A stretch of 30,941 bases of DNA from NCBI GenBank assembly GCA_002309195.1, contig DBWY01000004.1, positions 170 through 31,110 on the forward strand, read 5' to 3'. The translations under genes and the position numbers were made by a program. This document shows, in pieces, positions 931 through 25,354 of this stretch. The stretch is from Treponema sp. UBA1226. Lineage in GTDB: Bacteria; Spirochaetota; Spirochaetia; Treponematales; Treponemataceae. Position 1 is the first letter of the stretch. Each line of letters starts with the position of its first letter. A model generated the notes under the pieces. The model saw only the letters and a program-made list of their open reading frames with translations, was not told the origin of the DNA and did not search any database.

Positions 931-1545
931 CTACGCTAATTCCACAATCGCACGCCTGAATAAAATATCTTCCCTTTCCTTCTGACTCTTTGCGGCAAAA
1001 TCAGAATCGTTTGTAAAGACTTCATTAAGTTCAGCTACTTTCTGCTGGACAAGACGCTTATCATAGCCCATTCCCACAAGAGAAGAAACAACATCCGCGT
1101 AAGGACTTGCATCAAAACGCACAGACGGGCCGGAACTTTCACTGAGCTTTAATTTACCCTTGAGCGCAAGAATCATTTTTCCTGCTGTCTTTTTACCAAC
1201 GCCCGGAATTTTTTCGAGCATTTCAAAATCGCCTTTTTCAAGAATATCCATAAGACGAGAAGATGACACAGAACTCATTATCTTTACAGCGCCCTTAGGA
1301 CCAACTCCGTCGACCTTAAGAAGATCAAGAAAAACTTCACGCTCCTCCCGGCTTGCAAAACCATAAAGTGCCATAAGCTGGTCGGTATGCTGCAGCCATG
1401 TATATATCTTAGCTTCGTTTCCTACCGGCGGAATCAAATCAAGGTTCGAATCTGGAACGCATAAATCCCACTCTACACCGTTTGTATCAATAAGAATCTG
1501 TTTAGGAAACTTTCCCGTAATTATTCCTGTAAGTGAATTAAACAT
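931..1545 (-). CDS. ruvA: Holliday junction DNA-binding protein RuvA
   Basis: Tetrameric junction-binding partner of RuvB. 204 residues, the normal family length. N-terminal OB-fold (about 1-65), two helix-hairpin-helix motifs (VDGVGPKGAVKI and IPGVGKKTAGKMI), a flexible linker and a C-terminal three-helix RuvB-binding domain (about 150-204). I chose the ATG at 1545 over an in-frame TTG at 1563: MFNSLTGIITG matches the usual RuvA N-terminus and a TATAAT ends exactly 6 bases before this ATG. There is no Shine-Dalgarno sequence, so the mRNA may be leaderless. The gene is separated from ruvC by 127 bases and probably has its own promoter. Confidence 0.96.
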   Translation of the reverse strand: MFNSLTGIITGKFPKQILIDTNGVEWDLCVPDSNLDLIPPVGNEAKIYTWLQHTDQLMALYGFASREEREVFLDLLKVDGVGPKGAVKIMSSVSSSRLMDILEKGDFEMLEKIPGVGKKTAGKMILALKGKLKLSESSGPSVRFDASPYADVVSSLVGMGYDKRLVQQKVAELNEVFTNDSDFAAKSQKEREDILFRRAIVELA

Positions 1546-1551
1546 AATTAC

Positions 1552-1580
1552 ATTATAAAACAAAGCACTAAATAAGTGAA
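1552..1580 (-). promoter_or_regulatory. Candidate sigma-70 promoter of ruvAB, predicted leaderless
   Basis: On the minus strand, TTCACT (1580-1575, four of six matches to TTGACA), a 17-base spacer, then TATAAT (1557-1552). Six bases separate TATAAT from the ruvA ATG, so the expected +1 base is the A of the start codon. The call rests on spacing and hexamer match only. Confidence 0.6.
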
Positions 1581-1608
1581 TAGGTTTTTAAACACATAAA
1601 ACAAAATA

Positions 1609-1716
1609 CTATCTTTTAGGATTCTCAATGACCTTAAAGACGGAAAGTCCGTTCTTGCCATGTAATATTTTTTTATCCCCTGCTGTGAATATGAGTAACA
1701 GCACCTGCAAGTGCAT
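1609..1716 (-). CDS. Possible 35-residue small protein overlapping the 3' end of ruvC
   Basis: A short ATG-initiated frame, shifted +1 relative to ruvC, begins inside the last codons of ruvC and runs 64 bases past its stop to a TAG at 1609. It starts MHLQVLLLIF and ends GLSVFKVIENPKR: a hydrophobic start and a basic, plausible-looking tail. No good ribosome site is obvious and I do not recognise the sequence. It may be noise, the remnant of a longer ancestral frame, or a small coupled protein. It fills part of an otherwise empty ruvC-ruvA spacer. Confidence 0.15.
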   Translation of the reverse strand: MHLQVLLLIFTAGDKKILHGKNGLSVFKVIENPKR

Positions 1717-2221
1717 CTGCTGCATGATCCGGCCGGGGAACTTCTTTAAGTCCTAAAAGAAGTTTTACATAATTCTGAACAAGTTCTTTATCTGCAGTTG
1801 TATTTCCTGTAACTGCTTTTTTAATCTGGTTAGGAGTATATTCACCAAGGGGAATACAATGCTGTGCAAGGCAAAGCGATACTACCCCACGCGCTTCGCT
1901 TACTCCCATTGCAGATGTAACGTTCTTTGCAAAATAAAGGGTTTCCATTGCAGCCTCATCCGGTTTAAATTCATCGATTACGGCACAAAGCTTATTGTAA
2001 ATTGTAAGAAGACGCTCCCCATGAGGCGCATCCGAAAGCGTCGTAATACAGCCGTAACTTACCATGCGGTATCTGCCTTCGTAAAAATCAACGATTCCAA
2101 AACCTGTATTTGCAAGCCCAGGGTCAATTCCCAAAACCCGTCTGATTTTTTTTTGAGAAGTTTTTTTAACTGTTACCTCTGAACCTGGAAGCGGTTCAAA
2201 ATCAGGTATCTTTTTTTTCAT
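1673..2221 (-). CDS. ruvC: Crossover junction endodeoxyribonuclease RuvC
   Basis: Holliday-junction resolvase, RNase-H fold, acting with RuvAB. 182 residues from the ATG at 2221. Catalytic acidic residues are visible: Asp33 in GIDPG, Glu93 in METLYF, and the C-terminal RPDHAADALA with Asp165/His166 and Asp169. Compared with E. coli RuvC, where the first Asp is residue 7, there is a basic, low-complexity N-terminal extension of about 26 residues. An upstream in-frame start at 2287 would run through the yebC terminator and is unlikely. A TATAAT at 2234-2229 lies 7 bases before the chosen ATG, supporting this start and suggesting a leaderless or near-leaderless message; the only ribosome-site-like bases are AAAGAG, very close to the ATG. 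Confidence 0.94.
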   Translation of the reverse strand: MKKKIPDFEPLPGSEVTVKKTSQKKIRRVLGIDPGLANTGFGIVDFYEGRYRMVSYGCITTLSDAPHGERLLTIYNKLCAVIDEFKPDEAAMETLYFAKNVTSAMGVSEARGVVSLCLAQHCIPLGEYTPNQIKKAVTGNTTADKELVQNYVKLLLGLKEVPRPDHAADALAGAVTHIHSRG

Positions 2222-2228
2222 ACTCTTT

Positions 2229-2257
2229 ATTATAAATGCAATTTTTAAAACAATAAA
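2229..2257 (-). promoter_or_regulatory. Candidate promoter of ruvC, predicted leaderless
   Basis: TATAAT on the minus strand (2234-2229) is 7 bases before the ruvC ATG. The hexamer 17 bases upstream is TTTATT (2257-2252), only three of six matches, so the -35 is weak. It overlaps the downstream flank of the yebC terminator. Confidence 0.45.
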
Positions 2258-2279
2258 GCCCGGCATTACGTCGGGCTTT
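2255..2279 (-). terminator. Rho-independent terminator after yebC
   Basis: Perfect 8-bp stem AAAGCCCG (2255-2262) and CGGGCTTT (2272-2279) with a 9-base loop, followed on the minus strand by a T-rich run (TTTATTGTTTT). It sits between the yebC stop and the ruvC start and should separate the two transcripts. Confidence 0.85.
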
Positions 2280-2301
2280 GTTATCAATTCAGCTTATATG
2301 T

Positions 2302-3045
2302 TTATGCTTCTGGTTCGAAATCATCCGGATATTCAGCTGTGTGATAAACGTTCTGAACATCATCGTTGTCTTCGAGTTTATCAATCATCTTCTGAACTTT
2401 AGCAGCTGTATCTTTATCTACTGCTGTATATGCATCCGGAACCATTCCTACGTCAGCAGAAAGTGTTTCGATTCCTTTTGCTGCGATTGCATCTGCAACT
2501 GCTGTGAATGCATCTGGAGTTGTTGTAATTGTAATAACTCCGTCTTCATTTACAACATCGTCTGCACCTGCATCGAGAGCGATTTCCATTACTTCGTCTT
2601 CGCTTGCTTTTTCTGCATCGATTTCGATAGTTCCCTTTCTCTGGAACATACGGCTAACAGAACCTGATGTTCCGAGGTTTCCACCATGTTTTGTAAAGAT
2701 GTTGCGAACGTCAGCTGCAGCGCGGTTGTGGTTGTCTGTAAGAACTTCAACCATTACAGCAACTCCACCTGGAGCGTATCCTTCGTATACTAATTCTTCG
2801 TATGCTGTAGCACCGTCTTCACCTGTACCCTTTTTGATAGCACGTTCAATGTTATCTTTAGGCATGTTAGCGGCTCTTGCTTTGATGATTACTGTTCTAA
2901 GACGTGGGTTAGAGTTAGGATCTCCACCACCCATACGAGCTGCAATAGAAATTTCCTTGATGAATTTTGTAAAAATCTTTCCACGCTTTGCATCGGCCAA
3001 ACCTTTTGCATGTTTGATTGTGGCCCATTTACTGTGTCCTGACAT
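2302..3045 (-). CDS. yebC: YebC/PmpR-family protein (TACO1 family)
   Basis: Conserved cytoplasmic protein. The family has been described both as transcriptional regulators (PmpR) and as translation factors that relieve ribosome stalling (YebC/TACO1). 247 residues, full length. It opens with the hallmark SGHSKWATIKHAKG and continues with the RGKIFTKFIKEI segment, NPRLRTVI, and YEGYAPGGVAVMVE, the standard three-domain layout. The start has a good AAGGAG ribosome site about 5 bases upstream. It is the first gene of the yebC-ruvC-ruvA-ruvB arrangement common in bacteria, but a strong terminator follows it here, so coexpression with ruvC must depend on read-through or on separate promoters. Confidence 0.97.
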   Translation of the reverse strand: MSGHSKWATIKHAKGLADAKRGKIFTKFIKEISIAARMGGGDPNSNPRLRTVIIKARAANMPKDNIERAIKKGTGEDGATAYEELVYEGYAPGGVAVMVEVLTDNHNRAAADVRNIFTKHGGNLGTSGSVSRMFQRKGTIEIDAEKASEDEVMEIALDAGADDVVNEDGVITITTTPDAFTAVADAIAAKGIETLSADVGMVPDAYTAVDKDTAAKVQKMIDKLEDNDDVQNVYHTAEYPDDFEPEA

Positions 3046-3099
3046 GGGAACTCCTTATATAAATCTTTAAAATTGTTTGTTAAAAGAAATAACTTGAAA

Positions 3100-3129
3100 A
3101 TAATAACATTAATGGTTGTCAATAGTCAA
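3100..3129 (-). promoter_or_regulatory. Candidate sigma-70 promoter of yebC
   Basis: Minus-strand TTGACT (3129-3124), 18-base spacer, TATTAT (3105-3100). Predicted transcript start near 3093, giving a leader of about 48 bases that carries the AAGGAG site. Its -35 lies 3 bp from the -35 of the divergent ankyrin-gene promoter. Confidence 0.6.
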
Positions 3130-3132
3130 TAC

Positions 3133-3161
3133 TTGACCGCTGGGTTTTTGCTATATATAAT
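3133..3161 (+). promoter_or_regulatory. Sigma-70 promoter of the ankyrin-protein gene, predicted leaderless
   Basis: TTGACC (3133-3138), exactly 17 bases, then perfect TATAAT (3156-3161). Seven bases (AGAAAAT) separate the -10 hexamer from the ATG at 3169. The expected +1 is 3168-3169, leaving no room for a ribosome binding site. Confidence 0.75.
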
Positions 3162-3168
3162 AGAAAAT

Positions 3169-4896
3169 ATGAAGACAACAAGACTTGTTTTAACGGCAAT
3201 TTTAGCCCTTTTTGTTATAACACCCGCTTTTTCGTACAACAAGAACGACCTTATGCGCGCCGTTGAGTCGGATTCAAGCGCAAATGTAAAAAAAATACTT
3301 TCAAGAAATCCAAATCTTGCGACAGTAAGTTTTAACAGTGACAAAGATTCCATCTTAATGGTTGCAATAGATAATGATTGTAGCGTAAACGTAATCGAAG
3401 ATATCCTCAAAGCAGGCTGCAGCCCTGACATAAAAAACGCCTATGGCCAGACAGCTTTAATGTATGCCTGTAAAAAACAGGCTGAACCAAGAGTCATAAG
3501 AAAAATCATTAATTTTAATGTTCTCACAAAAGGCGGAAAAGAAAAACGCTGTACAGTTGCTGACAAAGACGGCAAAACCGCATTTGATTATGCGGGAGAA
3601 AACAGTTCAGCTTATAACGTTCTGCTTGAATTTGCACAGGACCCTAAAAAAGTTCCGCCTAAAGAAAAGAAATCCAAAAAAACTCAGGAAGAGGAACCTT
3701 TAGAAGAAACTGAAGAAGTCGCAGAGGAAGTTGCAGAAGAAACAGAAGAAGTTACCGAAGAAGTTGAAGAGGTTGAAGAAACTGCAGAAGAAATTCCTGA
3801 AGAAGCAGAAGAAGTCGAAGAAGTTGCAGACGAACCTGTAGAAGAAGTTGAAGAAATCGAAGAGGAACGCGTTGCATACGATGAACCGGAAGAACTGGTA
3901 GAAGAAACAATCGAAGAAACTGCAGATGAATCTTTTGAAGAAGCAATCGAAGAAGCTGCTGTTGCAGCTGCTGCAGTTCCGGTAATTGTTGAAGAAACAG
4001 AACCAGAAGAAGAAACCGAAGAAGCTGAATCAGAGGAAGAATTCGAAGAAGATTATTCAGAAGAATATGATTATGAAGAAACAGAAGAATACGCAGAAAC
4101 ATATACAGAAGAAACCGAAGAAACACCAGAAGAAGTTCCTGCAAAAATTGATGTAAACGTTACACAGGAATTCCCTAAAATTGATCACTACAGCAAAAAC
4201 AATCCTGAATATCTTTTCGATGACATGGATGCAGAAACAACTGTAGTAACAGATGATTATAAACCTAAAACGATTTCAAATCCTGATGCAACAGACAGAA
4301 GCGGAAGAACAAGACTCATGAATGCAATCATGTCAAATGATGTAGAGCTTTGTTACAACCTCCTCTACTCTGGAGCAAAAATTACTTCACGCGATAAAGA
4401 CGGATGGACTCCGCTCATGTATGCATGCCGCTATGCAAAGTCTCCTGACATTGTAGTGATGCTTTTTAATCATGGTTCAACCCTTACAGAAAAAGCAAAC
4501 ATCTACGGCATTACACCGCTTTCGATTGCAGCAGCATACTGTCAGAACGAACAGATTTTAAATATCGTTCTCGAACATGCTAAGATAGAAAAAATCGAAA
4601 TCGCACCGGCATTTGTAACTGCACTCACAAGTGAACGTCCGGCAAAAATCGTAAAAGAATTCCTGTCGTACATCAAGAACATCAATAAACTCATAAGCGG
4701 GAAAACTCCATTGATGTACGCTGCACAGAATTACAGCGACACTTCTGTAATAAAGCTTCTTCTCGAATCAGGAGCAGACCCTTACATCATAAGCTCAGAA
4801 AAGAAGAATGCATTCAGTTATGCAAAAGAAAACAACAGAATTGTACATGATTCTGTTTACTGGTCTCTCAACGTTTCTTACACAAAGAAAAGGTAG
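3169..4896 (+). CDS. Secreted ankyrin-repeat protein with a long glutamate-rich central region
   Basis: 575 residues. A signal peptide is visible (basic MKTTR, hydrophobic core to about residue 20, likely cleavage after AFS at 22), so export to the periplasm or envelope is inferred. Ankyrin-type repeats occupy about 25-165 (for example YGQTALMYACKKQ) and about 375-565 (SGRTRLMNAIMSNDVELC, DGWTPLMYACRYA, GKTPLMYAAQN). Between them lies a low-complexity stretch, about 173-324, made almost wholly of Glu with Val, Ala and Thr. The start follows from the signal peptide and the promoter; the frame stays open to 3073, but that region holds the promoter. rsmD begins 2 bases after the stop. Ankyrin repeats imply protein binding; the partner is unknown. 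Confidence 0.85.
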   Translation: MKTTRLVLTAILALFVITPAFSYNKNDLMRAVESDSSANVKKILSRNPNLATVSFNSDKDSILMVAIDNDCSVNVIEDILKAGCSPDIKNAYGQTALMYACKKQAEPRVIRKIINFNVLTKGGKEKRCTVADKDGKTAFDYAGENSSAYNVLLEFAQDPKKVPPKEKKSKKTQEEEPLEETEEVAEEVAEETEEVTEEVEEVEETAEEIPEEAEEVEEVADEPVEEVEEIEEERVAYDEPEELVEETIEETADESFEEAIEEAAVAAAAVPVIVEETEPEEETEEAESEEEFEEDYSEEYDYEETEEYAETYTEETEETPEEVPAKIDVNVTQEFPKIDHYSKNNPEYLFDDMDAETTVVTDDYKPKTISNPDATDRSGRTRLMNAIMSNDVELCYNLLYSGAKITSRDKDGWTPLMYACRYAKSPDIVVMLFNHGSTLTEKANIYGITPLSIAAAYCQNEQILNIVLEHAKIEKIEIAPAFVTALTSERPAKIVKEFLSYIKNINKLISGKTPLMYAAQNYSDTSVIKLLLESGADPYIISSEKKNAFSYAKENNRIVHDSVYWSLNVSYTKKR

Positions 4897-4898
4897 TC

Positions 4899-5444
4899 AT
4901 GAGAATCACCGGCGGAAAACTTTCTGGACGCAGCATAAAATGTCCTGACGGCGTAATACGACCTGCAATGGACAGAATGAGGGAATCTGTCTTTGCAATA
5001 CTTGGAGACCTCTCGGGAAAATCTTTTCTGGATCTTTTTTCGGGTTCTGGAACAATTGCAATAGAAGCAGTTTCGCGTGGTGCAACAAACGTTGAACTGT
5101 GCGAAAAAGATAAAATCAAGATAAAAACAGTCCTTGACAATGTTTCTGTAACAGAAAAAGAAATGGGCGTAAAGATTCACTGTCATTTTATGGCAGTTGA
5201 ACTCTTTTTAAAGCGCTGCAAATCCAAATTTGACTATATATTCTTTGATCCACCGTTCCCGTATAAATTTCATGAACAGCTTGTAGAACTTGCATCAAAA
5301 CGCGGACTTTTAAACCCTGGAGGCATAATTCTGGTTCACCGGCCAGAAGAACACTTCATGCCGGACGAAATCGACACTCTTTACAGGAAAGACCAGAGGG
5401 TTTACGGACGTTCAATCGTAGATTTCTATACATATAAAGAGTAG
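4899..5444 (+). CDS. rsmD: 16S rRNA (guanine(966)-N2)-methyltransferase RsmD
   Basis: SAM-dependent methyltransferase for G966 of 16S rRNA. 181 residues, typical length. The N-terminus MRITGGKLSGRSIKCP, the IRPAMDRMRESVFAIL segment, the SAM-binding loop LDLFSGSGTIAIEAVSRGA (about 44-62), and the catalytic motif FFDPPF are all in the expected order. It lies 2 bases downstream of the ankyrin gene, and the AAAAGG at the end of that gene is its likely ribosome site, so it is probably the second cistron of that transcript. No terminator is evident after it. In many bacteria rsmD neighbours coaD; that is not so here. Confidence 0.93.
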   Translation: MRITGGKLSGRSIKCPDGVIRPAMDRMRESVFAILGDLSGKSFLDLFSGSGTIAIEAVSRGATNVELCEKDKIKIKTVLDNVSVTEKEMGVKIHCHFMAVELFLKRCKSKFDYIFFDPPFPYKFHEQLVELASKRGLLNPGGIILVHRPEEHFMPDEIDTLYRKDQRVYGRSIVDFYTYKE

Positions 5445-5509
5445 AAAGCGCTTAAAATAAAATTTAACTTCCGCTATTGACTTCTAGGGTTTTTATGATA
5501 ACATTGTAA

Positions 5510-5515
5510 TATAAT
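5510..5515 (+). promoter_or_regulatory. Possible -10 element before the TPR pair
   Basis: A perfect TATAAT lies 25 bases before the ATG at 5541, in a very AT-rich spacer after rsmD. No convincing -35 lies at 16-18 bases; a TTGACT at 5477-5482 is too far away (27-base spacer). The ribosome site AAGGTGAT is clear. Confidence 0.35.
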
Positions 5516-5540
5516 AGTATAAAATTTTAAAAAGGTGATT

Positions 5541-5879
5541 ATGAATAAAGAAACCAAGACAGTTCTGGAACAAAAGCAGATTCCCGAGGGATTCATAAAA
5601 GTTACGGATCAGCCTGTAAAAACGCTTTCATCTGAACAGAAAGTAATTCTTAATCGCAAAGGAAATGTTCTTTTTAATGAAGGAAACATAGAAGGTGCAA
5701 GGCGTATTTTCATTACAACCGGCTATTCTGACGGTCTTACGCGCGTTGCAGATAAATATGCTTCTGAAAAAAAAGAATTAAAAGCTTTAAAACTTTATCT
5801 TCTTGCCCACAATGAACGCAAGACAGAGCCTATTTACAATAAAATTGCGCAGACAATATCGATGCTTATTAGTGAATAA
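5541..5879 (+). CDS. Small conserved-looking cytoplasmic protein, cotranscribed with a TPR protein
   Basis: 112 residues, soluble, charged, no signal peptide or membrane segment. I do not recognise a named family. The helical segment around 45-100 (LNRKGNVLFNEGNIEGARRI, then ALKLYLLAHNERKTEP) reads like one and a half degenerate TPR-like hairpins, which fits its neighbour, a large TPR protein 36 bases downstream. The ATG at 5541 has AAGGTGAT correctly placed before it; the in-frame GTG at 5535 is part of that ribosome site and was rejected as the start. The two genes probably act together, but nothing in the sequence fixes the process. Confidence 0.75.
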   Translation: MNKETKTVLEQKQIPEGFIKVTDQPVKTLSSEQKVILNRKGNVLFNEGNIEGARRIFITTGYSDGLTRVADKYASEKKELKALKLYLLAHNERKTEPIYNKIAQTISMLISE

Positions 5880-5915
5880 AATATATAAAAAAACAATTTC
5901 AGGAGATGTAAAAAA

Positions 5916-7079
5916 ATGGACGAGCAGAAAGGATTTGTTCAGGATCACGAAATCGACACCCTTGACCCTACTAAAGATCTGGAAAATGAACAGTCAAATG
6001 AAATTTCTGAGTTATCCAAAAGAGGTTATCAGCTTTTAAAGGAGAACAAAATCAAGGAAGCAAAGGAAGAATTTTCTAAGATTCTCGGAATCGAAGAAAA
6101 CAACAACTATGCCCTTGTAGGACTTGGAGATTCTGAGCGAAAGCTCAATCATTACAATGATGCAATTGAATATTACTCAAGATGTCTTTCTTATCATCCC
6201 GGTAATAACTATGCATTGTTCGGACTTGCAGACTGTTATAAGGCTTTAAATCAGTTTCATAAAGCAATTACAATCTGGGAACAGTATCTTGTTCACGACG
6301 ACAGAAACATTACAGTCCTTACACGTGTTGCAGATGCTTACAGAAAAATACGTGACTTTAAAAAATCAAAACAGCTTTATTTAAAAGTTCTCGATATGGA
6401 AGAAAACAATCCGTATGCACTCATAGGACTTGGTCACCTTCATTACGATTTTAAAGAATACCGCGATGCACTTTATTACTGGACAAAGATGCTCGACTTA
6501 AATCCTAATGCAGTTGATATACGCGTATTAACTTCGATCGGAAACTGCCACAGAAAATTAAAGACATTCGACCGCGGCGTAAAATATTTCGAACGTGCCC
6601 TCGAAAGTGATCCTAAAAACTTTTATGCATTGTTTGGACTTGCAGACTGCTACCGTGGAATGAACCAGCAGTACCGCTCTGTAGAATACTGGAATAAAAT
6701 TCTTGAGCTTGATCCTAACAACAAAGTTATTCTCACGCGTGCAGGAGATGCATACAGGAACACAGGTGATTACAAGACAGCAACAGAATATTACAACAAG
6801 GCAATGAACATTGACTTTGATATTTATGCTGCCCTTGGACTTGCACTAATCTGTAAAGGCGAAGGTCATTACGAAGAAAGTATCGAACGCTTAAGCGCAC
6901 TTATTAAAAACGATCCTAAAAACTACAGGCTCTACATTGATCTTGCAGACAGTTACTTAAAACTTAATCAGCGCCAGAAAGCAATAGAGGCACTCGAAAG
7001 TTTCCAGAAACTGGGAATCAGAAGCCAGGCTATAAATGAATCACTCGAAAAAGTAAGGAACAACAAAAGCCTTTCATAG
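5916..7079 (+). CDS. Tetratricopeptide-repeat protein, about nine to ten tandem repeats
   Basis: 387 residues with no signal peptide, predicted cytoplasmic. After a short acidic N-terminus (about 1-30) the protein is an almost uninterrupted array of 34-residue TPR units. The repeat core NNYALVGLGD / NNYALFGLADCYKALNQ / NPYALIGLGHLHYDFKEY / NFYALFGLADCYRGMNQ recurs, alternating with units of the type ITVLTRVADAYRKIRDF and VILTRAGDAYRNTGDY. This two-unit periodicity suggests the array grew by duplicating a pair of repeats. A strong AGGAGATG site precedes the ATG. TPR arrays scaffold protein-protein contacts; no enzymatic domain is attached and the client is unknown. The next gene, rlmN, begins 28 bases later with its own -10. 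Confidence 0.9.
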   Translation: MDEQKGFVQDHEIDTLDPTKDLENEQSNEISELSKRGYQLLKENKIKEAKEEFSKILGIEENNNYALVGLGDSERKLNHYNDAIEYYSRCLSYHPGNNYALFGLADCYKALNQFHKAITIWEQYLVHDDRNITVLTRVADAYRKIRDFKKSKQLYLKVLDMEENNPYALIGLGHLHYDFKEYRDALYYWTKMLDLNPNAVDIRVLTSIGNCHRKLKTFDRGVKYFERALESDPKNFYALFGLADCYRGMNQQYRSVEYWNKILELDPNNKVILTRAGDAYRNTGDYKTATEYYNKAMNIDFDIYAALGLALICKGEGHYEESIERLSALIKNDPKNYRLYIDLADSYLKLNQRQKAIEALESFQKLGIRSQAINESLEKVRNNKSLS

Positions 7080-7101
7080 CCGGCACATTTTCTGATATAA
7101 T
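7073..7101 (+). promoter_or_regulatory. Candidate promoter of rlmN, predicted leaderless
   Basis: TTCATA (7073-7078, four of six matches), 17 bases, TATAAT (7096-7101), then 6 bases to the ATG at 7108. The expected +1 is the A of the ATG. The -35 overlaps the stop codon of the TPR gene. Confidence 0.55.
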
Positions 7102-7107
7102 GACGTT

Positions 7108-8130
7108 ATGAATAAAATTGCATTGACAGGACTCACTCCCCCACAGATTACGGAACAGTTGTCTTTAAATCAGTCGTTCCGTGGTAAGCAGATTTTTAAA
7201 TGGATTTACAGTCACGAATGCGATTTTGATAAAATGACAAATCTTTCAAAAGATTTGCGAGAGTTTTTAAAGGAAAAAGCAGTCGTAAGAAGTTCAACTG
7301 TAAACCAGGTTTTAAAAGATCCTGACGGAACTGTAAAACTTCAGATTAAACTTTCTGACGGACTTTTTATCGAAACAGTTCTTTTAACTGATAAAAGCGA
7401 CAGGAAAACTGCCTGTGTTTCATGCCAGGCAGGTTGTGCAATGAAGTGTGCTTTCTGCCAGACAGGAACGCTGGGCCTTGCAAGAAACCTCACCCCTGGC
7501 GAAATCATCGAACAGTTCATGTATCTTGAAGAAGTAAGCGGAACTTTGGACAACATCGTTTTTATGGGCATGGGCGAACCAATGATGAATCTCGATGCCA
7601 TAAGAACTGCAATCGAAATCTTAAGTTCTCCGGACGGAAGAAATCTTTCTACAAGAAGAATAACTTTAAGTACATGCGGTGTAATAAAAGGAATCTATGA
7701 CCTTGCCGATAACGGGCCTTTAATAAGGCTTGCAGTTTCTCTTACAACCGCAGATGAAGAGTTAAGAGAAAGCCTCATGCCTGTACAAAAGGGAAATCCG
7801 CTTGCAGATTTAAGAGAGGCTATAAATTATTATGCCCAGAAGACAGGAAAGCGCGTTACTTTAGAAGCAGCCCTCCTTCATAACAAAAATACGGGTAAAG
7901 AAAGCGCAGGCCGCCTCATTGAGTTTGCCCGCGGCCTTGACGTAAATATAAATCTTATTCCGTGGAATCCTATAGATACACTCCCGTTTGAAGAACCGGA
8001 TGCAAAAGAATGCCGTGATTTTGTTACAGAACTAGAAAAGGCAGGACTTAACGTAACATTAAGGACACGCCGCGGGCGTACGATAAAAGGGGCCTGCGGA
8101 CAGCTCGGAAAAACTTCTGCAGAAAGCTAA
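7108..8130 (+). CDS. rlmN: Dual-specificity 23S rRNA/tRNA methyltransferase RlmN (radical SAM)
   Basis: Methylates C2 of A2503 in 23S rRNA and A37 of some tRNAs by a radical SAM, cysteine-relay mechanism. 340 residues. The [4Fe-4S] motif CAMKCAFC places the cluster cysteines at 110, 114 and 117; the methyl-carrying C-terminal cysteine is Cys330 in GACGQL. MGMGEPMMN and STCGVIKGI are also family hallmarks. The N-terminal helical RNA-recognition domain (LTGLTPPQITEQL, FRGKQIFKWIY) is complete. There is no Shine-Dalgarno sequence; TATAAT ends 6 bases before the ATG. Confidence 0.97.
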   Translation: MNKIALTGLTPPQITEQLSLNQSFRGKQIFKWIYSHECDFDKMTNLSKDLREFLKEKAVVRSSTVNQVLKDPDGTVKLQIKLSDGLFIETVLLTDKSDRKTACVSCQAGCAMKCAFCQTGTLGLARNLTPGEIIEQFMYLEEVSGTLDNIVFMGMGEPMMNLDAIRTAIEILSSPDGRNLSTRRITLSTCGVIKGIYDLADNGPLIRLAVSLTTADEELRESLMPVQKGNPLADLREAINYYAQKTGKRVTLEAALLHNKNTGKESAGRLIEFARGLDVNINLIPWNPIDTLPFEEPDAKECRDFVTELEKAGLNVTLRTRRGRTIKGACGQLGKTSAES

Positions 8131-8136
8131 AAAAGA

Positions 8137-8202
8137 CATATGACAATATTCACTTGGCATATGATAAAATTCACCTGTAGAAATTGGTGAAAATTCTACC
8201 GT
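8137..8202 (+). repeat. Tandem 21-bp direct repeats upstream of the HMA-like gene
   Basis: Two adjacent units at 8137-8157 and 8158-8178 match at 17 of 21 positions (core CATATGA, then ATTCAC). A third, degraded unit (TGAAAATTCTACCGT) spans about 8188-8202. An inverted pair TTCACC (8170-8175) / GGTGAA, and GTAGAA / TTCTAC, overlap them. They lie about 75-116 bases before the predicted transcript start at 8253, a position that suits an activator site; the 21-bp period, two helical turns, puts the units on the same face of the DNA. Confidence 0.55.
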
Positions 8203-11126: not shown

Positions 11127-11993
11127 CTATTCAACATTCTTTGACTGCTCGCGAATGTTTTCTATTGCATCCTTTGCAGTAATTACCATTGCCCCTACTT
11201 CGGTAAACTGGTTTTTACTGCCGATTGTATTTATCTCACGGTTAATTTCCTGACAGATAAAATCAAGTTTTTTACCCGGAACAGGATTATCATTTATTTC
11301 GTTTTTCATCGCTTCAAGATGACTTGAAAGACGAACGATTTCTTCGTTTATCGTATACTTTACAAGCATTGCAGCTGTTTCTGTCATTATACGGTTTTCA
11401 TCCGCGTTATCGCCCAGAAGTTCGTTGAACTTTTTTGTAATCTGTTCTTTAAACATGGCTTCCATTTTAGGCTGCCATTCTTTAAAGAAAGAAGCACATT
11501 CTTCAAGCTTAACAAGTTTTTCAAGAAGATCCTTTTTAAGATTTTCTCCTTCACGAAGCCTGTCTTTTACAAATTCATCAAGTGAAGAATTAAATACAGG
11601 AAGAATCATTTCCTTATATTTTTCTGCATCATAGTTTTTTGAACTGTTTAAAACTCCGGGCTGCGAAACAATTAAACCTATCGGAATCTCCTGACTGTAG
11701 CCTATTGAATCAGAAATCTTTTTTATTGCATCATAATATGCTTTTGCAGCCTTCGTATCTGCAGTAATTTCTACATCAGATTCAGTTTCTTTTACTCTTA
11801 TAAAAACATCAACTTTGCCGCGGACAACTTTTTTTGTCACTAAATCTCGAAAAAAACTTTCAAGCGGATTTAAAAACGGCGGAAGATTTACGGTTAAATC
11901 CAGAAAACGCGAATTTACAGATTTTATTTCTACAGAAACGACTGCATTTTCTGTGTTCTGTTCAATATAAGAATAACCTGTCATTGATGTCAT
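11127..11993 (-). CDS. yicC: YicC-family endoribonuclease
   Basis: 288 residues, full length for the YicC/YloC family, whose E. coli member has been described as an endoribonuclease acting on small RNAs. The N-terminal MTSMTGYSYIE, the SVNSRFLDL motif, and the C-terminal KLDFICQEINREINTIGSK followed by MVITAKDAIENIREQSKNVE are characteristic. The ATG at 11993 has GAGG about 9 bases upstream; the ATG three codons later would also be possible. It is probably the first gene of a two-gene operon with the cytidylate-kinase gene 48 bases downstream. A TATACT at 12024-12019 is a possible -10, but no matching -35 was seen. Confidence 0.92.
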   Translation of the reverse strand: MTSMTGYSYIEQNTENAVVSVEIKSVNSRFLDLTVNLPPFLNPLESFFRDLVTKKVVRGKVDVFIRVKETESDVEITADTKAAKAYYDAIKKISDSIGYSQEIPIGLIVSQPGVLNSSKNYDAEKYKEMILPVFNSSLDEFVKDRLREGENLKKDLLEKLVKLEECASFFKEWQPKMEAMFKEQITKKFNELLGDNADENRIMTETAAMLVKYTINEEIVRLSSHLEAMKNEINDNPVPGKKLDFICQEINREINTIGSKNQFTEVGAMVITAKDAIENIREQSKNVE

Positions 11994-13435: not shown

Positions 13436-14983
13436 CTATTGTTCTAGAATCGCCTTACCGAGTTTCCAGTTATCCCCTGCTCCCATCGTAACAAAAAGAT
13501 ATCCGTCAGGGTATGCACCTGTAAGCGGAGCATCAAGAAGTTCGAGGACTTTATCCTTTGCGTCAAGAATTTCTTCGAAATAATGAACTCTATTTTCTTC
13601 GATACCGGTTTTTAAAACTTCTTCGTAAAGCGTCCGACCTGTGATATTAAAATCTGCAGGATTTTCCCTTGCAGATGAATAAATCTTATGAAGGATTATT
13701 TCGTCTGCACTTTTAAAGCACGAGGCAAATTCTTTTAAGAGAGCCTGAGTTCTGCTGTATGTATGGCTCATAAAGTCAACGATGATTTTTCTTCCCTTAT
13801 AAAATTCTCTAAAGCCTTCAAGGGTTGTCTTTACAGCTGTCGGATGGTGACCGTAGTCATCTACAACAACTACATCGTTTCCTGATTTTGTCTTAAAGCG
13901 GCCTACGATTTCACTTCGTCTTTTTCCACCTGTAAAGTTTATAAGACCGCGTGAAATATTCTGATAATTTGAAAGTGGATCTATACCTGCATCACGTAAA
14001 AGCTCAGAGCATAATGCAACGGCAGCGGCTGCATCCATTACTTCGTGCTTTCCTGGAACTGCAATTGCAAGCTCACCACAGTTTTTAAAAAGTTCAAGTT
14101 TAAAACAGTTTTTTTCGTTTTCTACTTTACCGAACGAAAGCCTATAGTCGCCTTTGGCATTCTGGCCGTAAGGAATCATTTTTATGTCAGGCCTTTTTTT
14201 ACCTGCGATAGAAGCTGTTTCTACAGCGCCCTTGTCATCGGCACAGTAAATGAGTTCACCGTTTTCCGGGAGCTTACAGATATAATCTACGAAAGCATCA
14301 CGAATATCTTCGTAAGTCGGGTAATAATCCTGATGGTCGCTTTCTACCGATGTAAGGATTATCTTTTTAGGGCAGAAAGACATAAAGTGTCTCTGGTATT
14401 CGCATGTTTCTGCAACAAAAATGTTTTTGCCATTAAAATTCTGAGCATTTTCAGACGAAGCTTTATAGCCCTGATTGCGCTCTTTTTCTGCAATAAGAGG
14501 TGAAGTATATGTACATGTTCCGCCGAATGAGTTTATAACGCTGCCTGCAAGAACCTGGGAAGGAAGATTAAGTTCCTTGAGTATTGTTCCGGTTAAACCC
14601 GTTGTAGAAGTTTTACCATGAACACCGCATATACCGCACGAGTAAGCGCGTTCGCTGTAACTTCCGAGAGCTTCTGTGTATAAAAGGCATGGAATATTTT
14701 TTTTGACTGCGGCTATAAGGTCCGGGTTTTTATCGAGCTTGTATGCAGAAGAATATACTACATACTGGATTTTATCTGTAATATTGTTTTCTGAAAAAGA
14801 AAGCGCCTTAAGTCCGAGTTTTTCAAGAATTTCATCTGTATAAAAACGCTCGGCTACGTCGCTTCCTGTAATTACAGCGCCTGCATGAAAAAGTATTTCG
14901 ACAAGGGCTGCCATACCGGTTCCCTTGATTCCGACAAAATGTATATGAACGCCTTTTAAATTTTCGGGTAATTGTTTAGCCAT
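13436..14983 (-). CDS. murC: UDP-N-acetylmuramate--L-alanine ligase MurC
   Basis: ATP-dependent ligase adding L-Ala to UDP-MurNAc in peptidoglycan synthesis. 515 residues, longer than the usual 450-490. Seen: N-terminal UDP-binding loop HFVGIKGTGMAAL (15-27), ATP-binding GVHGKTSTTG (120-129), central AETCEYQRHF and SVESDHQDYYPT, and C-terminal VDDYGHHPTAVKTTL, which favours MurC over Mpl. Extra length comes partly from an insert after GTCTYTSPLI (about 170-190). The ATG at 14983 has no Shine-Dalgarno sequence but lies 7 bases after a TATACT, so a leaderless mRNA is predicted. The frame is open upstream to 15025, but that stretch contains the promoter. Confidence 0.94.
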   Translation of the reverse strand: MAKQLPENLKGVHIHFVGIKGTGMAALVEILFHAGAVITGSDVAERFYTDEILEKLGLKALSFSENNITDKIQYVVYSSAYKLDKNPDLIAAVKKNIPCLLYTEALGSYSERAYSCGICGVHGKTSTTGLTGTILKELNLPSQVLAGSVINSFGGTCTYTSPLIAEKERNQGYKASSENAQNFNGKNIFVAETCEYQRHFMSFCPKKIILTSVESDHQDYYPTYEDIRDAFVDYICKLPENGELIYCADDKGAVETASIAGKKRPDIKMIPYGQNAKGDYRLSFGKVENEKNCFKLELFKNCGELAIAVPGKHEVMDAAAAVALCSELLRDAGIDPLSNYQNISRGLINFTGGKRRSEIVGRFKTKSGNDVVVVDDYGHHPTAVKTTLEGFREFYKGRKIIVDFMSHTYSRTQALLKEFASCFKSADEIILHKIYSSARENPADFNITGRTLYEEVLKTGIEENRVHYFEEILDAKDKVLELLDAPLTGAYPDGYLFVTMGAGDNWKLGKAILEQ

Positions 14984-14990
14984 AAAAATG

Positions 14991-15019
14991 AGTATATCGC
15001 TTTTATGGGGCAGATTCAA
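14991..15019 (-). promoter_or_regulatory. Sigma-70 promoter of murC, predicted leaderless
   Basis: Minus-strand TTGAAT (15019-15014), 17 bases, TATACT (14996-14991), then 7 bases (CATTTTT) to the ATG at 14983. The same two hexamers with the same spacing occur before the outer-membrane-protein gene at 25622-25650. Confidence 0.7.
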
Positions 15020-18855: not shown

Positions 18856-18878
18856 TTTATCTTTTAGGTTTTAAAAAA

Positions 18879-20237: not shown

Positions 20238-21508
20238 TTTTTACCTTCTTCGCTTTCACTGTCATAACCAGTACTGTCCGGCATTTTTTTTGATTGAGGC
20301 TTTTCACCATCAAAAGACAAAAGGCGTCTGTCGAGCTGCGGAACCGGAATCGAAATAAAGAATGTAGTTCCTTTATTAAGCTCGGATTCAACATTGATAT
20401 CGCCTGAAAATTCCTTGATGATTTTATAAACCATCGTAAGTCCAAGTCCCGTTCCGGTTGCCTTTGTCGTATAATACGGCTCAAAGATGCGCGAGACTTT
20501 TTCTTCTGTCATACCGCAGCCGTTGTCAGAAATCTCAAGATGATATCTGTCATCTTTTATGTAAGTCTTTATTTTTAGACAGCCGTCTTTTATTTTCTTA
20601 TTTTCGTTTATCGCATAAATTGCATTCTGCGAAAGATTAACTATTACTTCGCGAAAAAGCTTTTCATCAAGTAAAAGCCTTATGTCTTCCTTACAAAGTT
20701 CAACTTCGATGCCGATTTTTTCCTTGTCATATTCCGGCTTAAGAAAATCAACAAGCTTTTCGATAATCTGATTCGGATGTAAGAGTTCAAGATTTGCACT
20801 TACCGGGCGGACTGCAAAAAGGAAATCCACAACGATTTTATTTAAGTTATCAATTTCTTCGTTAACGATATCAAGATAATTTTCTACAAATTTTTTATCA
20901 GGAATCTGATTATCCTTTCCCCTCGCCTTTGCAATCGCTTTCTGCAAAAGCTGAATATGAATGCTTATTGCACCAAGCGGATTTTTAATTTCATGAGCAA
21001 CGCTTGCGGCAAGATTTGTAAGGCTTGCAAGACTTTCCATGCGGTGCAAAAGAATTTCCTGGTTACGTTTTTCTGTTATATCGCGGAATATGATTATATT
21101 TCCTGCAAGTTCCTCGTTACTTAAAAAAGGTGTAACAGTTATCGTAATAAATCTTACGGAGCCACCGTTATTTGAAATCGTAAATTCCTGCGATACATTT
21201 GTTTTATTTAAATCCTTACAGTCTTTAAAAAATGCTGCTATATCTTCATCCTTTACGATTTCTGAAAGGCTTATTTTTTCTGCATTTGCGTCCATCGGAT
21301 CTGTAGAAAAAAGAACAAACCTGTCTACAGCCTTATTTAAATGAACGGGAACCCAGTCATTATTTACGATTAAAATTCCAGAAGTTAAAGACTGGATTAT
21401 CGAGTTTAACATCTGATTGTCGGCGCTCATTGCTTCAAAGAGCCCCTGAATCTGAGAATCCGAAAGTTTTGAAATCTTTTCTGATATTCTTGTGTTAAAG
21501 TTTGACAT
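20234..21508 (-). CDS. Soluble PAS-type sensor histidine kinase, partner of the sigma-54 regulator
   Basis: 424 residues without membrane segments: a cytoplasmic sensor of the NtrB/AtoS type. PAS domain about 30-145 (SLTSGILIVNNDWVPVHLNK to GNIIIFRDITEKR), dimerisation and phosphoacceptor helix with His172 in SVAHEIKNPLGA, and a C-terminal ATPase with N-box VIVNLSQNAIYAIN, G1 DNGCGM and G2 GTGLGLTMV. The stimulus must be intracellular; no cofactor site can be recognised. Translation probably couples with holB, whose last 14 bases overlap the start of this gene, and with the regulator downstream. Confidence 0.94.
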   Translation of the reverse strand: MSNFNTRISEKISKLSDSQIQGLFEAMSADNQMLNSIIQSLTSGILIVNNDWVPVHLNKAVDRFVLFSTDPMDANAEKISLSEIVKDEDIAAFFKDCKDLNKTNVSQEFTISNNGGSVRFITITVTPFLSNEELAGNIIIFRDITEKRNQEILLHRMESLASLTNLAASVAHEIKNPLGAISIHIQLLQKAIAKARGKDNQIPDKKFVENYLDIVNEEIDNLNKIVVDFLFAVRPVSANLELLHPNQIIEKLVDFLKPEYDKEKIGIEVELCKEDIRLLLDEKLFREVIVNLSQNAIYAINENKKIKDGCLKIKTYIKDDRYHLEISDNGCGMTEEKVSRIFEPYYTTKATGTGLGLTMVYKIIKEFSGDINVESELNKGTTFFISIPVPQLDRRLLSFDGEKPQSKKMPDSTGYDSESEEGKK

Positions 21509-22724
21509 AGGCCTCTAAAAGTGCATTTTCGTTCTGACGGTTAATCAGAGCAATTTCCTTTACTAGATTTTCCAGCGCAGAAAGCACGTTCTGATTATAA
21601 ACTGTTATATTATTCCATGCATCGCATATAGCCTTAGTACATTTTGAACTTGCATAAGTACCACGGGCAGTTTTTAAAGCACTTTTTTGAATATCATAAA
21701 GATTTACAAAAAAGATTCTTAAAATTGTACGCGGGTCAAATTTATTGCAGTTACTTATAAGCTGTGCAAGGTCAGGAATATGACCGTTAATAATCTCTTC
21801 ATAAAATTGCGTTGAATACTGTTTAATAAGATCAGGTGAAACAGAAAGAAACTGCTGCAGATACTGTTCGATTGAGCCATCAAATTTTTCATGATAAACC
21901 CTGTCGATTATATCTGCACTCTGAGCCTGCGTACGGGCTGTAAAATTATAAGTTCTTACGCGCGAAAGAATTGTAGGCATTACAGAGTTTCTTTTGCTCG
22001 TAGTTAAAATAAATACAGTATTTTCAGGCGGCTCTTCAAGGATTTTTAAAAGCGCATTTCTAACCCCCTCAAGCATTCTCTCTGCCTTTTCGATTATTAC
22101 AACCTTTTTTCCTTCAGAAAGTGAAATATGTGCCCACTGAGAAAGATTTCTTATCTGTGCAATTGAAATAGAGTCATACATCAACTCTTCTTCAAATTCT
22201 AAAGCCTCTTTTTCAAGTTTATCGCAAATTTTTGAAAGGTCATCAAAATCAGGAAGTTCACGCGGAAAATCAATTTCTTCTAAAAGCTCATCAATATCCT
22301 GCATATAGGCAGAAATCTTAGAAAGCTTGTCACTATCCTGCCATAAAACAGGATTAAAGCGCATCGTTAATTTTCGAATGCTTCTTAAAAAAAGATAGCG
22401 CGCTGCATCCTCATGCTGACCGCTTAAAAAGGCATTTAAAAAAGTTTTTTTTGCAGCAGAAATCTCAAGGCTGCAGTCACGCGGTCCTAAAAGAACTACA
22501 TTGGAACTCAAAAGCGCTTTATGAGAAAGACACGAAGAGCATGTACACTGCCACTTTCCAGGCACCTTATCCTTGCACGAAAGAATTCTTGCAGTTTCAA
22601 GCGCTGCCGTAAGCTTACCAGAAGCATCAGGCCCGGAAAATAAAATCGAACCCGGGAGTCTGTCGTTTTTTATATCATCGCTTAAAAGAGAATCTGTATT
22701 CTGATATAAAAGATTTTCGTACAT
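21495..22724 (-). CDS. holB: DNA polymerase III clamp-loader subunit delta-prime (HolB-like) with a large insertion
   Basis: 409 residues. An AAA+-like N-terminus (LPGSILFSGPDASGKLTAA, 23-41) is followed by a cysteine cluster at 50, 60, 62 and 65 resembling the DnaX/HolB zinc module, then SIAQIRNLSQWA, KKVVIIEKAERM (206-217), LLKILEEPPENTVFIL (225-240) and ILSRVRTYNF. This order is the delta-prime signature. The P-loop lacks Ser/Thr after the Lys (GKL), as expected for a subunit that need not hydrolyse ATP. About 100 extra residues, acidic and helical, lie between the zinc module and the IRNLSQ segment (about 81-183). The stop overlaps the kinase start and the ATG overlaps the cvpA stop by one base. 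Confidence 0.85.
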   Translation of the reverse strand: MYENLLYQNTDSLLSDDIKNDRLPGSILFSGPDASGKLTAALETARILSCKDKVPGKWQCTCSSCLSHKALLSSNVVLLGPRDCSLEISAAKKTFLNAFLSGQHEDAARYLFLRSIRKLTMRFNPVLWQDSDKLSKISAYMQDIDELLEEIDFPRELPDFDDLSKICDKLEKEALEFEEELMYDSISIAQIRNLSQWAHISLSEGKKVVIIEKAERMLEGVRNALLKILEEPPENTVFILTTSKRNSVMPTILSRVRTYNFTARTQAQSADIIDRVYHEKFDGSIEQYLQQFLSVSPDLIKQYSTQFYEEIINGHIPDLAQLISNCNKFDPRTILRIFFVNLYDIQKSALKTARGTYASSKCTKAICDAWNNITVYNQNVLSALENLVKEIALINRQNENALLEAYVKL

Positions 22725-23206
22725 TAAGCGCTCTCCAGCAGCTTGGAACTTGTGCTGTTTATAAATCCGTTAAAATATTTATAGAAAAGACTTTCCTTGA
22801 TAATCGGAAAACTGAACCATGTACTCAAAGCATCAAGGACGATAAAAATTAGAACGATTACAAAAAAGCCTTCTGCAATTCCAAAAAGAAATCCAAGTCC
22901 GTGATCAAGGCTCTTTAAAATGCTTCCCGAGAAAACAGACTTTAATGCAAGCTGAATTATTTTAACAACGAGGAATATGATTATAAAAATAAGAAGGAAC
23001 GAAAGAATTTTTGCAATCGTAGGGTTCATGCACGCTTCGAGATACGGCGAAAGCTTTGGCATAAAAAAGTACGCAAGGTACGCACCAAAGATAAAAGTTC
23101 CAAGTCCGAAAAAGTCATCGATAAAACCTTTAATCGCTGCCCTTATACTTAAAATAAGAGTGATAAGAATAAAACAGATATCAACCGGCGTAAGTCCAAA
23201 CGGCAT
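22724..23206 (-). CDS. cvpA: CvpA-family inner-membrane protein
   Basis: 160 residues with four predicted membrane segments, at about 9-27, 31-49, 64-90 and 107-128, matching the CvpA family (named for colicin V production in E. coli, where it neighbours purF). The family's molecular role is not settled; links to envelope and stress resistance are reported. The conserved N-terminal half, DICFILITLILSIRAAIKGF with FFGLGTFIFGAYLAY, is clear. It sits between murG and holB, 13 bases after the murG stop, behind AAGGAAGG; its own stop shares a base with the holB ATG. Confidence 0.88.
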   Translation of the reverse strand: MPFGLTPVDICFILITLILSIRAAIKGFIDDFFGLGTFIFGAYLAYFFMPKLSPYLEACMNPTIAKILSFLLIFIIIFLVVKIIQLALKSVFSGSILKSLDHGLGFLFGIAEGFFVIVLIFIVLDALSTWFSFPIIKESLFYKYFNGFINSTSSKLLESA

Positions 23207-23219
23207 TTAAGCACCTTCC

Positions 23220-24398
23220 TTATTTTATATTGTTTATGCAGTCGTCAAAAATCAGATCTGCAATTTTTTCTGCACTTCTCTTTTTATCAAGCAAAGCTGC
23301 CATTGCTTCAGAAAAGAGCTTTCTCTTTTTAGCATCAAGCATGGCGCTCAAAGCATTCTTTAAAGGATCAGAAGAAGCATACTCGCCCTTAAGAACAATC
23401 GCAGCGCCTTTCTTTTCAAAAAACTCTGCATTGTCAACCTGATCTCCTCTCGTTCCGGAACCACAAAGCGGAATCAGGACAACAGGCTTTTTCAAAACAG
23501 CACACTCCCAGAGACTGTTGGCACCGGCGCGCGAAAGAATTACATCTGCATATTCCATTACATGCGGCATCTGCTCATAAATAAACGGAAACTGTCTGTA
23601 ACTGTCAAGCACGCTGTCAGGAATTACAGGAATCGAATCCTGATTTTTAATTCCTGTCTGATGAACGACATAAAATCTCTTGCACAAAAATTCGATGTTT
23701 TCAAATACAAGGTCATTAATCTGCTTTGCACCAAGAGAACCGCCCATAACAAAAAGAACAGGCTTTGTCTTTTTCGAATAACCAAAGTTAACGAAATCCT
23801 TTCCTATCTTTGCATCAGTTGAATAAAACACAGGACGAACAGGATTTCCGGTAACCAGTGCTTTTTCTGCAAAATCTTTCTGCATGAACTCTTTTGTCTC
23901 TTCATAAGATAAAAGAATCTTTGTAGCAAAACGACTGTTAATCTTAGTCGCAAGTCCAGGTGTAAAATCACATTCATGCGTATAAACTTTTATTCCGAGG
24001 AGTTTTGCAACTACACAAGGCGGAACACTTACAAACCCACCCTTACTAAAAAGAACGACAGGCTTTTCTTTTAACAGAATAAAAAAAGAAGCAATACAGC
24101 CGGCCGCAATTTTAAAAAGGTCTGTAAAATTCTTTAAAGAAAAATAACGCCTTAATTTTCCCGAAGGAATTCCGTAAAACTTATTTACAGAAGGAAGATC
24201 ATCAAGTCCCAGATTTGACTCGACTATATTTCTGTCCATTTTAGAACAGTTTCCTATCCAAACAAGATTTAAAGGGACATCTTTTTTCTTGCAGAGTTCC
24301 TTTAACTCATCTGCAATTGCAAGTCCCGGATAAATATGCCCGCCTGTTCCACCGCCGGCAAACGCTACGGTAATTTTTTTAGTTTTGTTTTTTTTCAT
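23220..24398 (-). CDS. murG: UDP-GlcNAc--lipid I N-acetylglucosaminyltransferase MurG
   Basis: Converts lipid I to lipid II at the inner face of the cytoplasmic membrane. 392 residues, slightly long for the family. N-terminal glycine loop AFAGGGTGGHIYPGLAIA (13-30), the second loop VLFSKGGFVSVPP, VTGNPVRPVF, VMGGSLGAKQIND, and the UDP-GlcNAc site RAGANSLWECAVLKKPVVLIP are all intact. A very Lys/Asn-rich start (MKKNKTKK) precedes the fold. The gene begins 23 bases after the second ankyrin gene on the same strand with only a weak ribosome site, so it probably shares that transcript. With murC this window holds two steps of peptidoglycan synthesis, in separate operons. Confidence 0.95.
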   Translation of the reverse strand: MKKNKTKKITVAFAGGGTGGHIYPGLAIADELKELCKKKDVPLNLVWIGNCSKMDRNIVESNLGLDDLPSVNKFYGIPSGKLRRYFSLKNFTDLFKIAAGCIASFFILLKEKPVVLFSKGGFVSVPPCVVAKLLGIKVYTHECDFTPGLATKINSRFATKILLSYEETKEFMQKDFAEKALVTGNPVRPVFYSTDAKIGKDFVNFGYSKKTKPVLFVMGGSLGAKQINDLVFENIEFLCKRFYVVHQTGIKNQDSIPVIPDSVLDSYRQFPFIYEQMPHVMEYADVILSRAGANSLWECAVLKKPVVLIPLCGSGTRGDQVDNAEFFEKKGAAIVLKGEYASSDPLKNALSAMLDAKKRKLFSEAMAALLDKKRSAEKIADLIFDDCINNIK

Positions 24399-24421
24399 TT
24401 TTTTGTGCTCGTTTATTTTGT

Positions 24422-25318
24422 TTATTCTTTATGATATTTTTCAAGCATCTGTGCAATGTCTTTTTTGCCAAAGAGTTTTGCATACTCATAGGCAGACATA
24501 CCCATCTGGTCTTTTACGTCAGGATCAGCACCAGACTCTGCAAGAAGTTTACAAATATCAAATTTCCCTGCTCCGACTGCAAGAACTAAAACCGACTGAC
24601 CGTCGCGGCTTATGAAATTTAAGTTTGCGCCACGTTCAATCAGAATTTTAGTAAGTTCGTAATTATTTTTCCATACTGCATCCATTACGGCAGAATAACC
24701 TCTGTCGTTAGAAACAGCATCGATATCAACATTCTGAGATAAAATCCAGTTAACCGCTTCGCTCTGCTCTGCCCTGATTGCAACATTAAGCATCGGAGTT
24801 CCTTCTTCAGTTCTCGTATTAATGCTTATTCCTGCATCAACAAAATCCTGGCAGACTTTTAAATTGTTTTTAGAAATATGGTATGCAAAACAATCTGCTG
24901 TATATGGAATCCCTTCGTTAAAAAGATTAGAAAAAGCTTCGCGCGATCTTTCTTCTGTCTTAATTGCATCAAGTTGTTTTTCAAGTCCTTTTTTAAGCGC
25001 ATTTTCTCCTTTAAAAAGAAAAACGTTCTTAAAAAATTCCATATTTTTTGCCCACTCATTTGTAAGCGAGAAAAACTTTTTTACACGCCCTACAAGATAT
25101 CCGTAAAAAAACGAAATCTTATCTTCAAGAAGAAGCTGGTTATCAAAAAGAACGCAGTGAGTCGCATTTTTTACCGATTCATTGATTTTTTCGTCCTGCA
25201 GATCTGCAATTTTAGCAATCGGCACGATAGTAGATTCTATATTATGAACAAGCAGCATTTCCTTTGTTTCGTTTGCTGCTTTCTCGAGGTCATCTCTGTA
25301 TAAAATTATCCATTCCAT
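24422..25318 (-). CDS. Cytoplasmic ankyrin-repeat protein with an unidentified alpha/beta N-terminal domain
   Basis: 298 residues from the ATG at 25318; no signal peptide. The C-terminal half (about 135-295) holds four to five ankyrin repeats (EEGTPMLNVAIRAEQSEAVNWIL, DRGYSAVMDAVWKNNYELTK, DGQSVLVLAVGAGKFDICKLL, QMGMSAYEYAKLFGKKD). The N-terminal 90 residues are different: a strand-helix start (MEWIILYRDDLEKAANE), then VKNATHCVLFDN and ISFFYGYLVGRVKKFF, which is reminiscent of small Rossmann- or TIR-like domains but too divergent to name. There is no ribosome site; TATAAT ends 7 bases before the ATG, so the message is predicted leaderless. It is probably the first gene of the transcript that includes murG. 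Confidence 0.82.
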   Translation of the reverse strand: MEWIILYRDDLEKAANETKEMLLVHNIESTIVPIAKIADLQDEKINESVKNATHCVLFDNQLLLEDKISFFYGYLVGRVKKFFSLTNEWAKNMEFFKNVFLFKGENALKKGLEKQLDAIKTEERSREAFSNLFNEGIPYTADCFAYHISKNNLKVCQDFVDAGISINTRTEEGTPMLNVAIRAEQSEAVNWILSQNVDIDAVSNDRGYSAVMDAVWKNNYELTKILIERGANLNFISRDGQSVLVLAVGAGKFDICKLLAESGADPDVKDQMGMSAYEYAKLFGKKDIAQMLEKYHKE

Positions 25319-25325
25319 GAAATAT

Positions 25326-25354
25326 ATTATAGTAGATAAAGTGGTTATTAACAA
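25326..25354 (-). promoter_or_regulatory. Sigma-70 promoter of the second ankyrin gene, predicted leaderless
   Basis: Minus-strand TTGTTA (25354-25349), 17 bases, TATAAT (25331-25326), then 7 bases (ATATTTC) to the ATG at 25318. It would drive the ankyrin gene, murG, cvpA, holB and the two-component pair unless internal promoters exist; I saw none with good hexamers. Confidence 0.7.

Follow-up and report, generated by a model that had tools for sequence, protein, structure and literature searches.

The window analyzed here, a stretch of 30,941 nt from contig DBWY01000004.1 of Treponema sp. UBA1226 whose positions serve as coordinates below, carries six genes in which a promoter-type −10 hexamer lies directly in front of the start codon and which are predicted to give leaderless mRNAs. 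On the reverse strand, the ruvA coding sequence (931..1545, start at 1545) is preceded by TATAAT at 1552..1557, which leaves 6 bases before the ATG (spacing denotes below the number of bases between the −10 hexamer and the start codon), and by a −35-like TTCACT at 1575..1580. The ruvC coding sequence, also on the reverse strand (1673..2221, RuvC domain at residues 29–177), has TATAAT at 2229..2234, at spacing 7 from ATG 2221, and a weak −35-like TTTATT at 2252..2257. Two genes lie on the forward strand. Ankyrin gene 1 (ank1, 3169..4896), which matches Ank_2 and other ankyrin models and whose N-terminus appears signal-peptide-like by eye, follows TTGACC at 3133..3138 and TATAAT at 3156..3161, the latter at spacing 7 from ATG 3169. 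The rlmN coding sequence (7108..8130, RlmN_N and Radical_SAM domains) follows a TATAAT at 7096..7101 that is 6 bases from ATG 7108 and has TGA in front, as in extended −10 promoters; its −35-like TTCATA (7073..7078) falls within the end of the preceding TPR gene. Finally, both again on the reverse strand, murC (13436..14983, three Mur ligase domains) has TATACT at 14991..14996, 7 bases before ATG 14983, with TTGAAT at 15014..15019, and ankyrin gene 2 (ank2, 24422..25318, ankyrin domain matches) has TATAAT at 25326..25331, 7 bases before ATG 25318, with TTGTTA at 25349..25354.

In each gene the two hexamers are separated by a spacer of 17 bases. The −35-like hexamer matches TTGACA at 4 or 5 of 6 positions in five genes and at 3 of 6 in ruvC; at least four matches occur at a random place in the window with a probability of 0.046. 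An earlier note on this DNA had placed the six −10 hexamers and claimed a −35 partner exactly 17 bases upstream in five of the six genes, with a weaker one at ruvC; all of the hexamers lie where it put them, and the claim about their partners is borne out. It had also claimed that the genes lack a convincing Shine-Dalgarno sequence. None that is convincing can be seen by eye at any of the six, but the point is weaker than it reads: the −10 hexamer fills the place that a Shine-Dalgarno sequence would take, so that its absence is not independent evidence. All six start codons are ATG, and each is directly preceded by a pyrimidine, which suits a transcription start on the A of the ATG. Two features beside the ankyrin genes may be recorded here. 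The ank1 gene and yebC are divergent and have a common gap of 123 bases (3045–3169), a natural comparison between a leaderless-type and a Shine-Dalgarno start, and a tRNA-Phe (GAA) gene (25473–25546, reverse strand) lies just upstream of ank2 on the same strand.

One might suppose that the hexamers arose by chance in AT-rich sequence close to start codons, and the GC content of the window is indeed only about 39%. The 59 in-frame ATGs that lie no more than 60 codons from the 5′-most start of the window's 29 genes based on open reading frames (ORFs) were compared with a control set in which their upstream regions had been shuffled 200 times with dinucleotides preserved. Exact TATAAT at spacing 6 or 7 occurs at five of these candidate ATGs, against a shuffle mean of 0.12 and a maximum of 1; with one mismatch allowed there are seven matches, against a mean of 0.66 and a maximum of 4. 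The observation of six promoters is thus real and beyond chance. The seventh match, TATCAT at the internal yicC ATG 11984, is background, because the likely yicC start at 11993 carries a Shine-Dalgarno sequence. The window is somewhat rich in such arrangements relative to related genomes, with 6 of 29 genes compared with 124 matches per 1281 genes, but it is not clearly unusual (p = 0.056).

That comparison draws on samples of seven related genomes, the window's own not among them (400, 300, 100, and four times 200 kb, 1.6 Mb in all), in which the 1281 genes were called by a custom script using ORFs and codon usage. We counted TA...T hexamers that differ from TATAAT at no more than one position by their distance to every candidate ATG and took the expectation for spacing 6 and 7 from spacings 11 to 40, where background matches also occur. 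The seven samples together have 124 such hexamers at spacing 6 and 7 when 49.5 are expected (Poisson p = 5e-19), an excess amounting to 5.8% of genes, and two at spacing 5. Such scarcity at spacing 5 is required of a leaderless class, because a closer promoter would cut off the AUG. In single genomes the excess lies between 3.1 and 10.7% of genes, and five of the seven have p < 0.006. Exact TATAAT is found 40 times when 9.1 are expected. In three samples with 1290 candidate ATGs, none of the 4096 hexamers is more frequent at this spacing than TATAAT (24 occurrences, followed by the Shine-Dalgarno word AAGGAG with 19), and its next best anagram reaches 9. The same count for GTG and TTG candidates in the seven samples gave 25 when 26.6 are expected, that is, no excess, so the signal belongs to AUG starts, and 200 kb of Escherichia coli K-12 handled in the same way (149 genes) gave 1 when about 1.9 are expected. 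Hexamers at spacing 6 and 7 also have the company expected of promoters: a −35 partner with at least four matches at 16–18 bases accompanies 58 of 124, versus 163 of 742 at spacings 11 to 40 (p = 2.7e-8), and a pyrimidine precedes the ATG in 94 of 124 versus 428 of 742 (p = 1e-4). Some of the 58 genes with both elements appear to encode housekeeping proteins. The G005 sample (L087–L106) shows in addition a smaller rise directly against the ATG, with 8 and 11 such hexamers at spacings 0 and 1 relative to 5.7 per position, perhaps due to base composition.

The arrangement can be followed most closely at ruvA, for which we collected 129 loci with at least 60 bases upstream and retained 92 after dropping those at least 75% alike. 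Here, and for the other orthologues, a −10 was defined as TA...T with at least four of six matches at spacing 6 or 7. It is present in 70 of the 92 regions, one of which also has a Shine-Dalgarno sequence, whereas 14 have only a Shine-Dalgarno sequence and 8 have neither. A Shine-Dalgarno sequence thus accompanies 1 of 70 genes with a −10 and 14 of 22 without, an opposition partly forced by the −10 occupying that place. The position is nearly fixed: a strong −10 stands at spacing 6 in 57 regions and at spacing 7 in another 9; two regions have it at spacing 5 and three elsewhere, and 21 have no strong one. A pyrimidine precedes the start in 65 of 70 genes with a −10 and in 12 of 22 without (p = 1.3e-4). 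Column by column, information in the 92 regions peaks at −9, −11, and −12 (0.72, 0.67, and 0.41 bits). Smaller rises are seen at −35 to −31 (0.23–0.32), −19 (0.34), and −1 (0.35), and most other columns are lower. This concentration in promoter columns indicates that the promoter is kept, not the whole upstream region. Furthermore, four of the six ruvA loci in which the stretch reaches at least 50% GC keep TATAAT, TATACT, or TAGAAT at spacing 6 (L259, L279, L282, and L283), which AT-richness would not explain; L288 and L291 do not keep it. Taken with the shuffles, the anagrams, the spacing profile, and the lack of excess at GTG and TTG or in E. coli, these loci refute chance AT-richness for the class, and we consider it very improbable as an account of the set, although individual genes such as ruvC may owe their hexamer to it.

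A second alternative accepts the promoters but places translation at a downstream in-frame start, so that the mRNAs would have leaders after all. The start codons were indeed assigned here from the DNA sequence. At ruvA, however, the Pfam RuvA_N model begins to match at residue 1, and the alignment with solved RuvA pairs the second residues of the two proteins, so the start codon may be taken as secure on the strength of the protein alignment, and in ank1 and many of its relatives the signal-peptide-like sequence begins, by eye, at the promoter-spaced ATG. We therefore give a downstream start very little credence. In some ank1 relatives (L216, L223, L224, L228, and L238) a further in-frame ATG lies upstream of the promoter-spaced ATG at which the signal-peptide-like sequence starts, and gene calls that take the longest ORF may misplace the start in such cases.

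Relatives of ank1, rlmN, murC, and ank2 were sought separately, since tblastn in 80 loci around ruvA gave ank1 and rlmN relatives in one locus each. A −10 at spacing 6 or 7 was found in 16 of 23 nonredundant upstream regions of murC and in 15 of 23 of ank2, where 7 of the remaining 8 have it at spacing 8–9. For ank1, 17 of 25 relatives (26 loci, one without a usable start; near-copies were not thinned) have a −10 at one of the first two ATGs. The control gene yebC behaves in the opposite manner, with a −10 at this spacing in 0 of 32 regions and a Shine-Dalgarno sequence in 32 of 32.

The type of initiation signal at ruvA has changed repeatedly. A quick maximum-likelihood tree of 91 RuvA proteins requires, with rows that have neither signal left out of the count, at least five undirected changes between the leaderless-type and Shine-Dalgarno states. 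Many forks are poorly supported, but when each label is set against all remaining rows, the strongly supported branches alone force at least three changes for the leaderless label and at least four for the Shine-Dalgarno label. The Shine-Dalgarno ruvA genes include those of a group with G096, G066, and the 1.14-Mb genome G055; in G096 itself the count of hexamers at spacing 6 and 7 (14, with 8.8 expected) is suggestive (p = 0.06). Operon position as the cause of the switch is unsupported: a same-strand ORF (at least 80 codons, by crude detection) ends no more than 40 bases upstream of ruvA in 18 of 69 genes with a −10 and in 6 of 13 with a Shine-Dalgarno sequence (p = 0.19).

The same distances bear on a third alternative, in which the promoters are real but minor and expression comes mainly from longer read-through transcripts translated without a Shine-Dalgarno sequence. 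The 18 ruvA genes close behind an ORF would fit this account, as would rlmN, whose ATG at 7108 follows closely on a TPR gene with a stop ending at 7079. Against it, the other 51 of the 69 ruvA genes with a −10 have no such ORF within 40 bases, and a minor promoter would have no need of the exact spacing that is conserved at ruvA. We regard read-through as unlikely, though less so than the two alternatives considered above.

We strongly favor the hypothesis that the six genes are transcribed from promoters abutting their start codons and yield leaderless mRNAs. A sigma-70 −10 hexamer with a further 6–7 bases behind it puts the transcription start on the first base of the ATG or on the base just ahead, and transcription starts prefer a pyrimidine at −1 and a purine at +1. 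Sigma-70-type promoters would thus be set for transcripts that open with the AUG itself or with a single extra base, and ribosomes would recognize the 5′-terminal AUG with initiator tRNA and without a Shine-Dalgarno sequence. The hexamers, their fixed distance to the start, the −35 partner, the pyrimidine before the ATG, the restriction to ATG, and the conservation among orthologues are direct observations, from which we infer where the transcripts begin and how their translation is initiated. The earlier note had read the genes in this way and had set as a test a genome-wide excess of −10 hexamers at this distance; the excess is present in the related genomes and, together with conservation at ruvA, murC, and the ankyrin genes, supports its reading.

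Several results nonetheless weigh against this hypothesis or narrow its reach. Two of the seven genome samples show no significant excess alone (G002, p = 0.15; G096, p = 0.06), the simple expectation that Shine-Dalgarno ruvA genes lie closer to a preceding gene failed, and among the 92 ruvA regions the eight with neither signal and the one with both do not conform. The ank2 relatives at spacing 8–9 would not be strictly leaderless but would carry a few bases ahead of the start codon. Conservation of the spacing, which the earlier note had also asked to see in orthologues, holds at ruvA, murC, ank1, and ank2 but is weak elsewhere: a −10 at spacing 6 or 7 is found in 8 of 25 nonredundant regions of rlmN (31 loci) and in 6 of 46 of ruvC (58 loci), and neither that signal nor a Shine-Dalgarno sequence is present in 17 of the 25 rlmN regions and 38 of the 46 ruvC regions. 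In several rlmN relatives, hexamers that match less well (TAAGAT or TACATT, for example) can be seen by eye at spacing 6–8; these may or may not count. At ruvC a variable N-terminus makes the start difficult to assign, and its place as a conserved member is unsupported. Lastly, the mean of six Spirochaetes in a survey of non-Shine-Dalgarno genes in 260 genomes (PMC5397173) is negative (−3.25) on the component that the survey associates with leaderless or S1-mediated initiation, so that the phylum average there is without a leaderless signal. Taken gene by gene, leaderless status is very likely for ruvA, murC, and the two ankyrin genes and likely for rlmN, whereas for ruvC it is only plausible.

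Beyond the window, we lean slightly toward a broader proposal, namely that treponemes possess an old, conserved leaderless set comprising at least ruvA, murC, and two ankyrin families, in which the ruvA promoter has been locked to within about one base relative to the start codon over varied base composition and has been swapped for a Shine-Dalgarno sequence in some lineages. Leaderless status itself would then be selected, for example through tuning by initiation-factor levels or stress. Since several of these genes show the arrangement in many relatives, a known but minority mode of initiation looks like a stable, inherited feature of the Treponema group. If the 5′ ends are confirmed, treponemes would be a Shine-Dalgarno-using group with a stable leaderless minority, and ruvA, traceable through several changes of initiation mode, would allow direct tests of why a gene stays leaderless. 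For annotation, starts assigned by the longest ORF may be wrong wherever an ATG lies upstream of a promoter-spaced one, as in the ank1 relatives.

To the earlier note, leaderless genes were not known as a described class in Treponema. Among the matches listed from the open-licence literature no paper describes leaderless mRNAs in this genus, but in the phylum they have already been predicted (PMC3160421) and mapped in Leptospira (PMC5243855). As far as these matches show, what is new is the predicted treponeme class and its gene-by-gene conservation. Zheng et al. (2011; PMC3160421) predicted leaderless (TA-led) genes in 6 of 18 Spirochaetes genomes, at a mean of 3.9% (1.8–6.9) of genes, which is similar to the excess of about 5.8% in the relatives examined here. 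Their TA-led genes likewise carry a signal resembling a −10 some 10 bp ahead of the start and were tested against dinucleotide shuffles; the word Treponema is absent from the main text of that paper, and the analysis of orthologues switching between initiation modes that it presents concerns Actinobacteria. In Leptospira interrogans (PMC5243855, 2017), of the same phylum, 430–450 genes have a transcript start mapped by differential RNA sequencing within 10 bases of the start codon. Those starts are measured whereas ours are predicted, and that report gives no common promoter motif save that of sigma-54, whereas the −10 and −35 elements here are clearly of the sigma-70 type. Streptococcus pneumoniae D39 (PMC6212727) belongs to another phylum, and its 70 leaderless transcripts, 9% of operons, are again measured rather than predicted; a reporter showed that they can be translated efficiently. 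As proposed here for treponemes, they form a leaderless minority, in an organism in which 69% of coding sequences have a ribosome-binding site.

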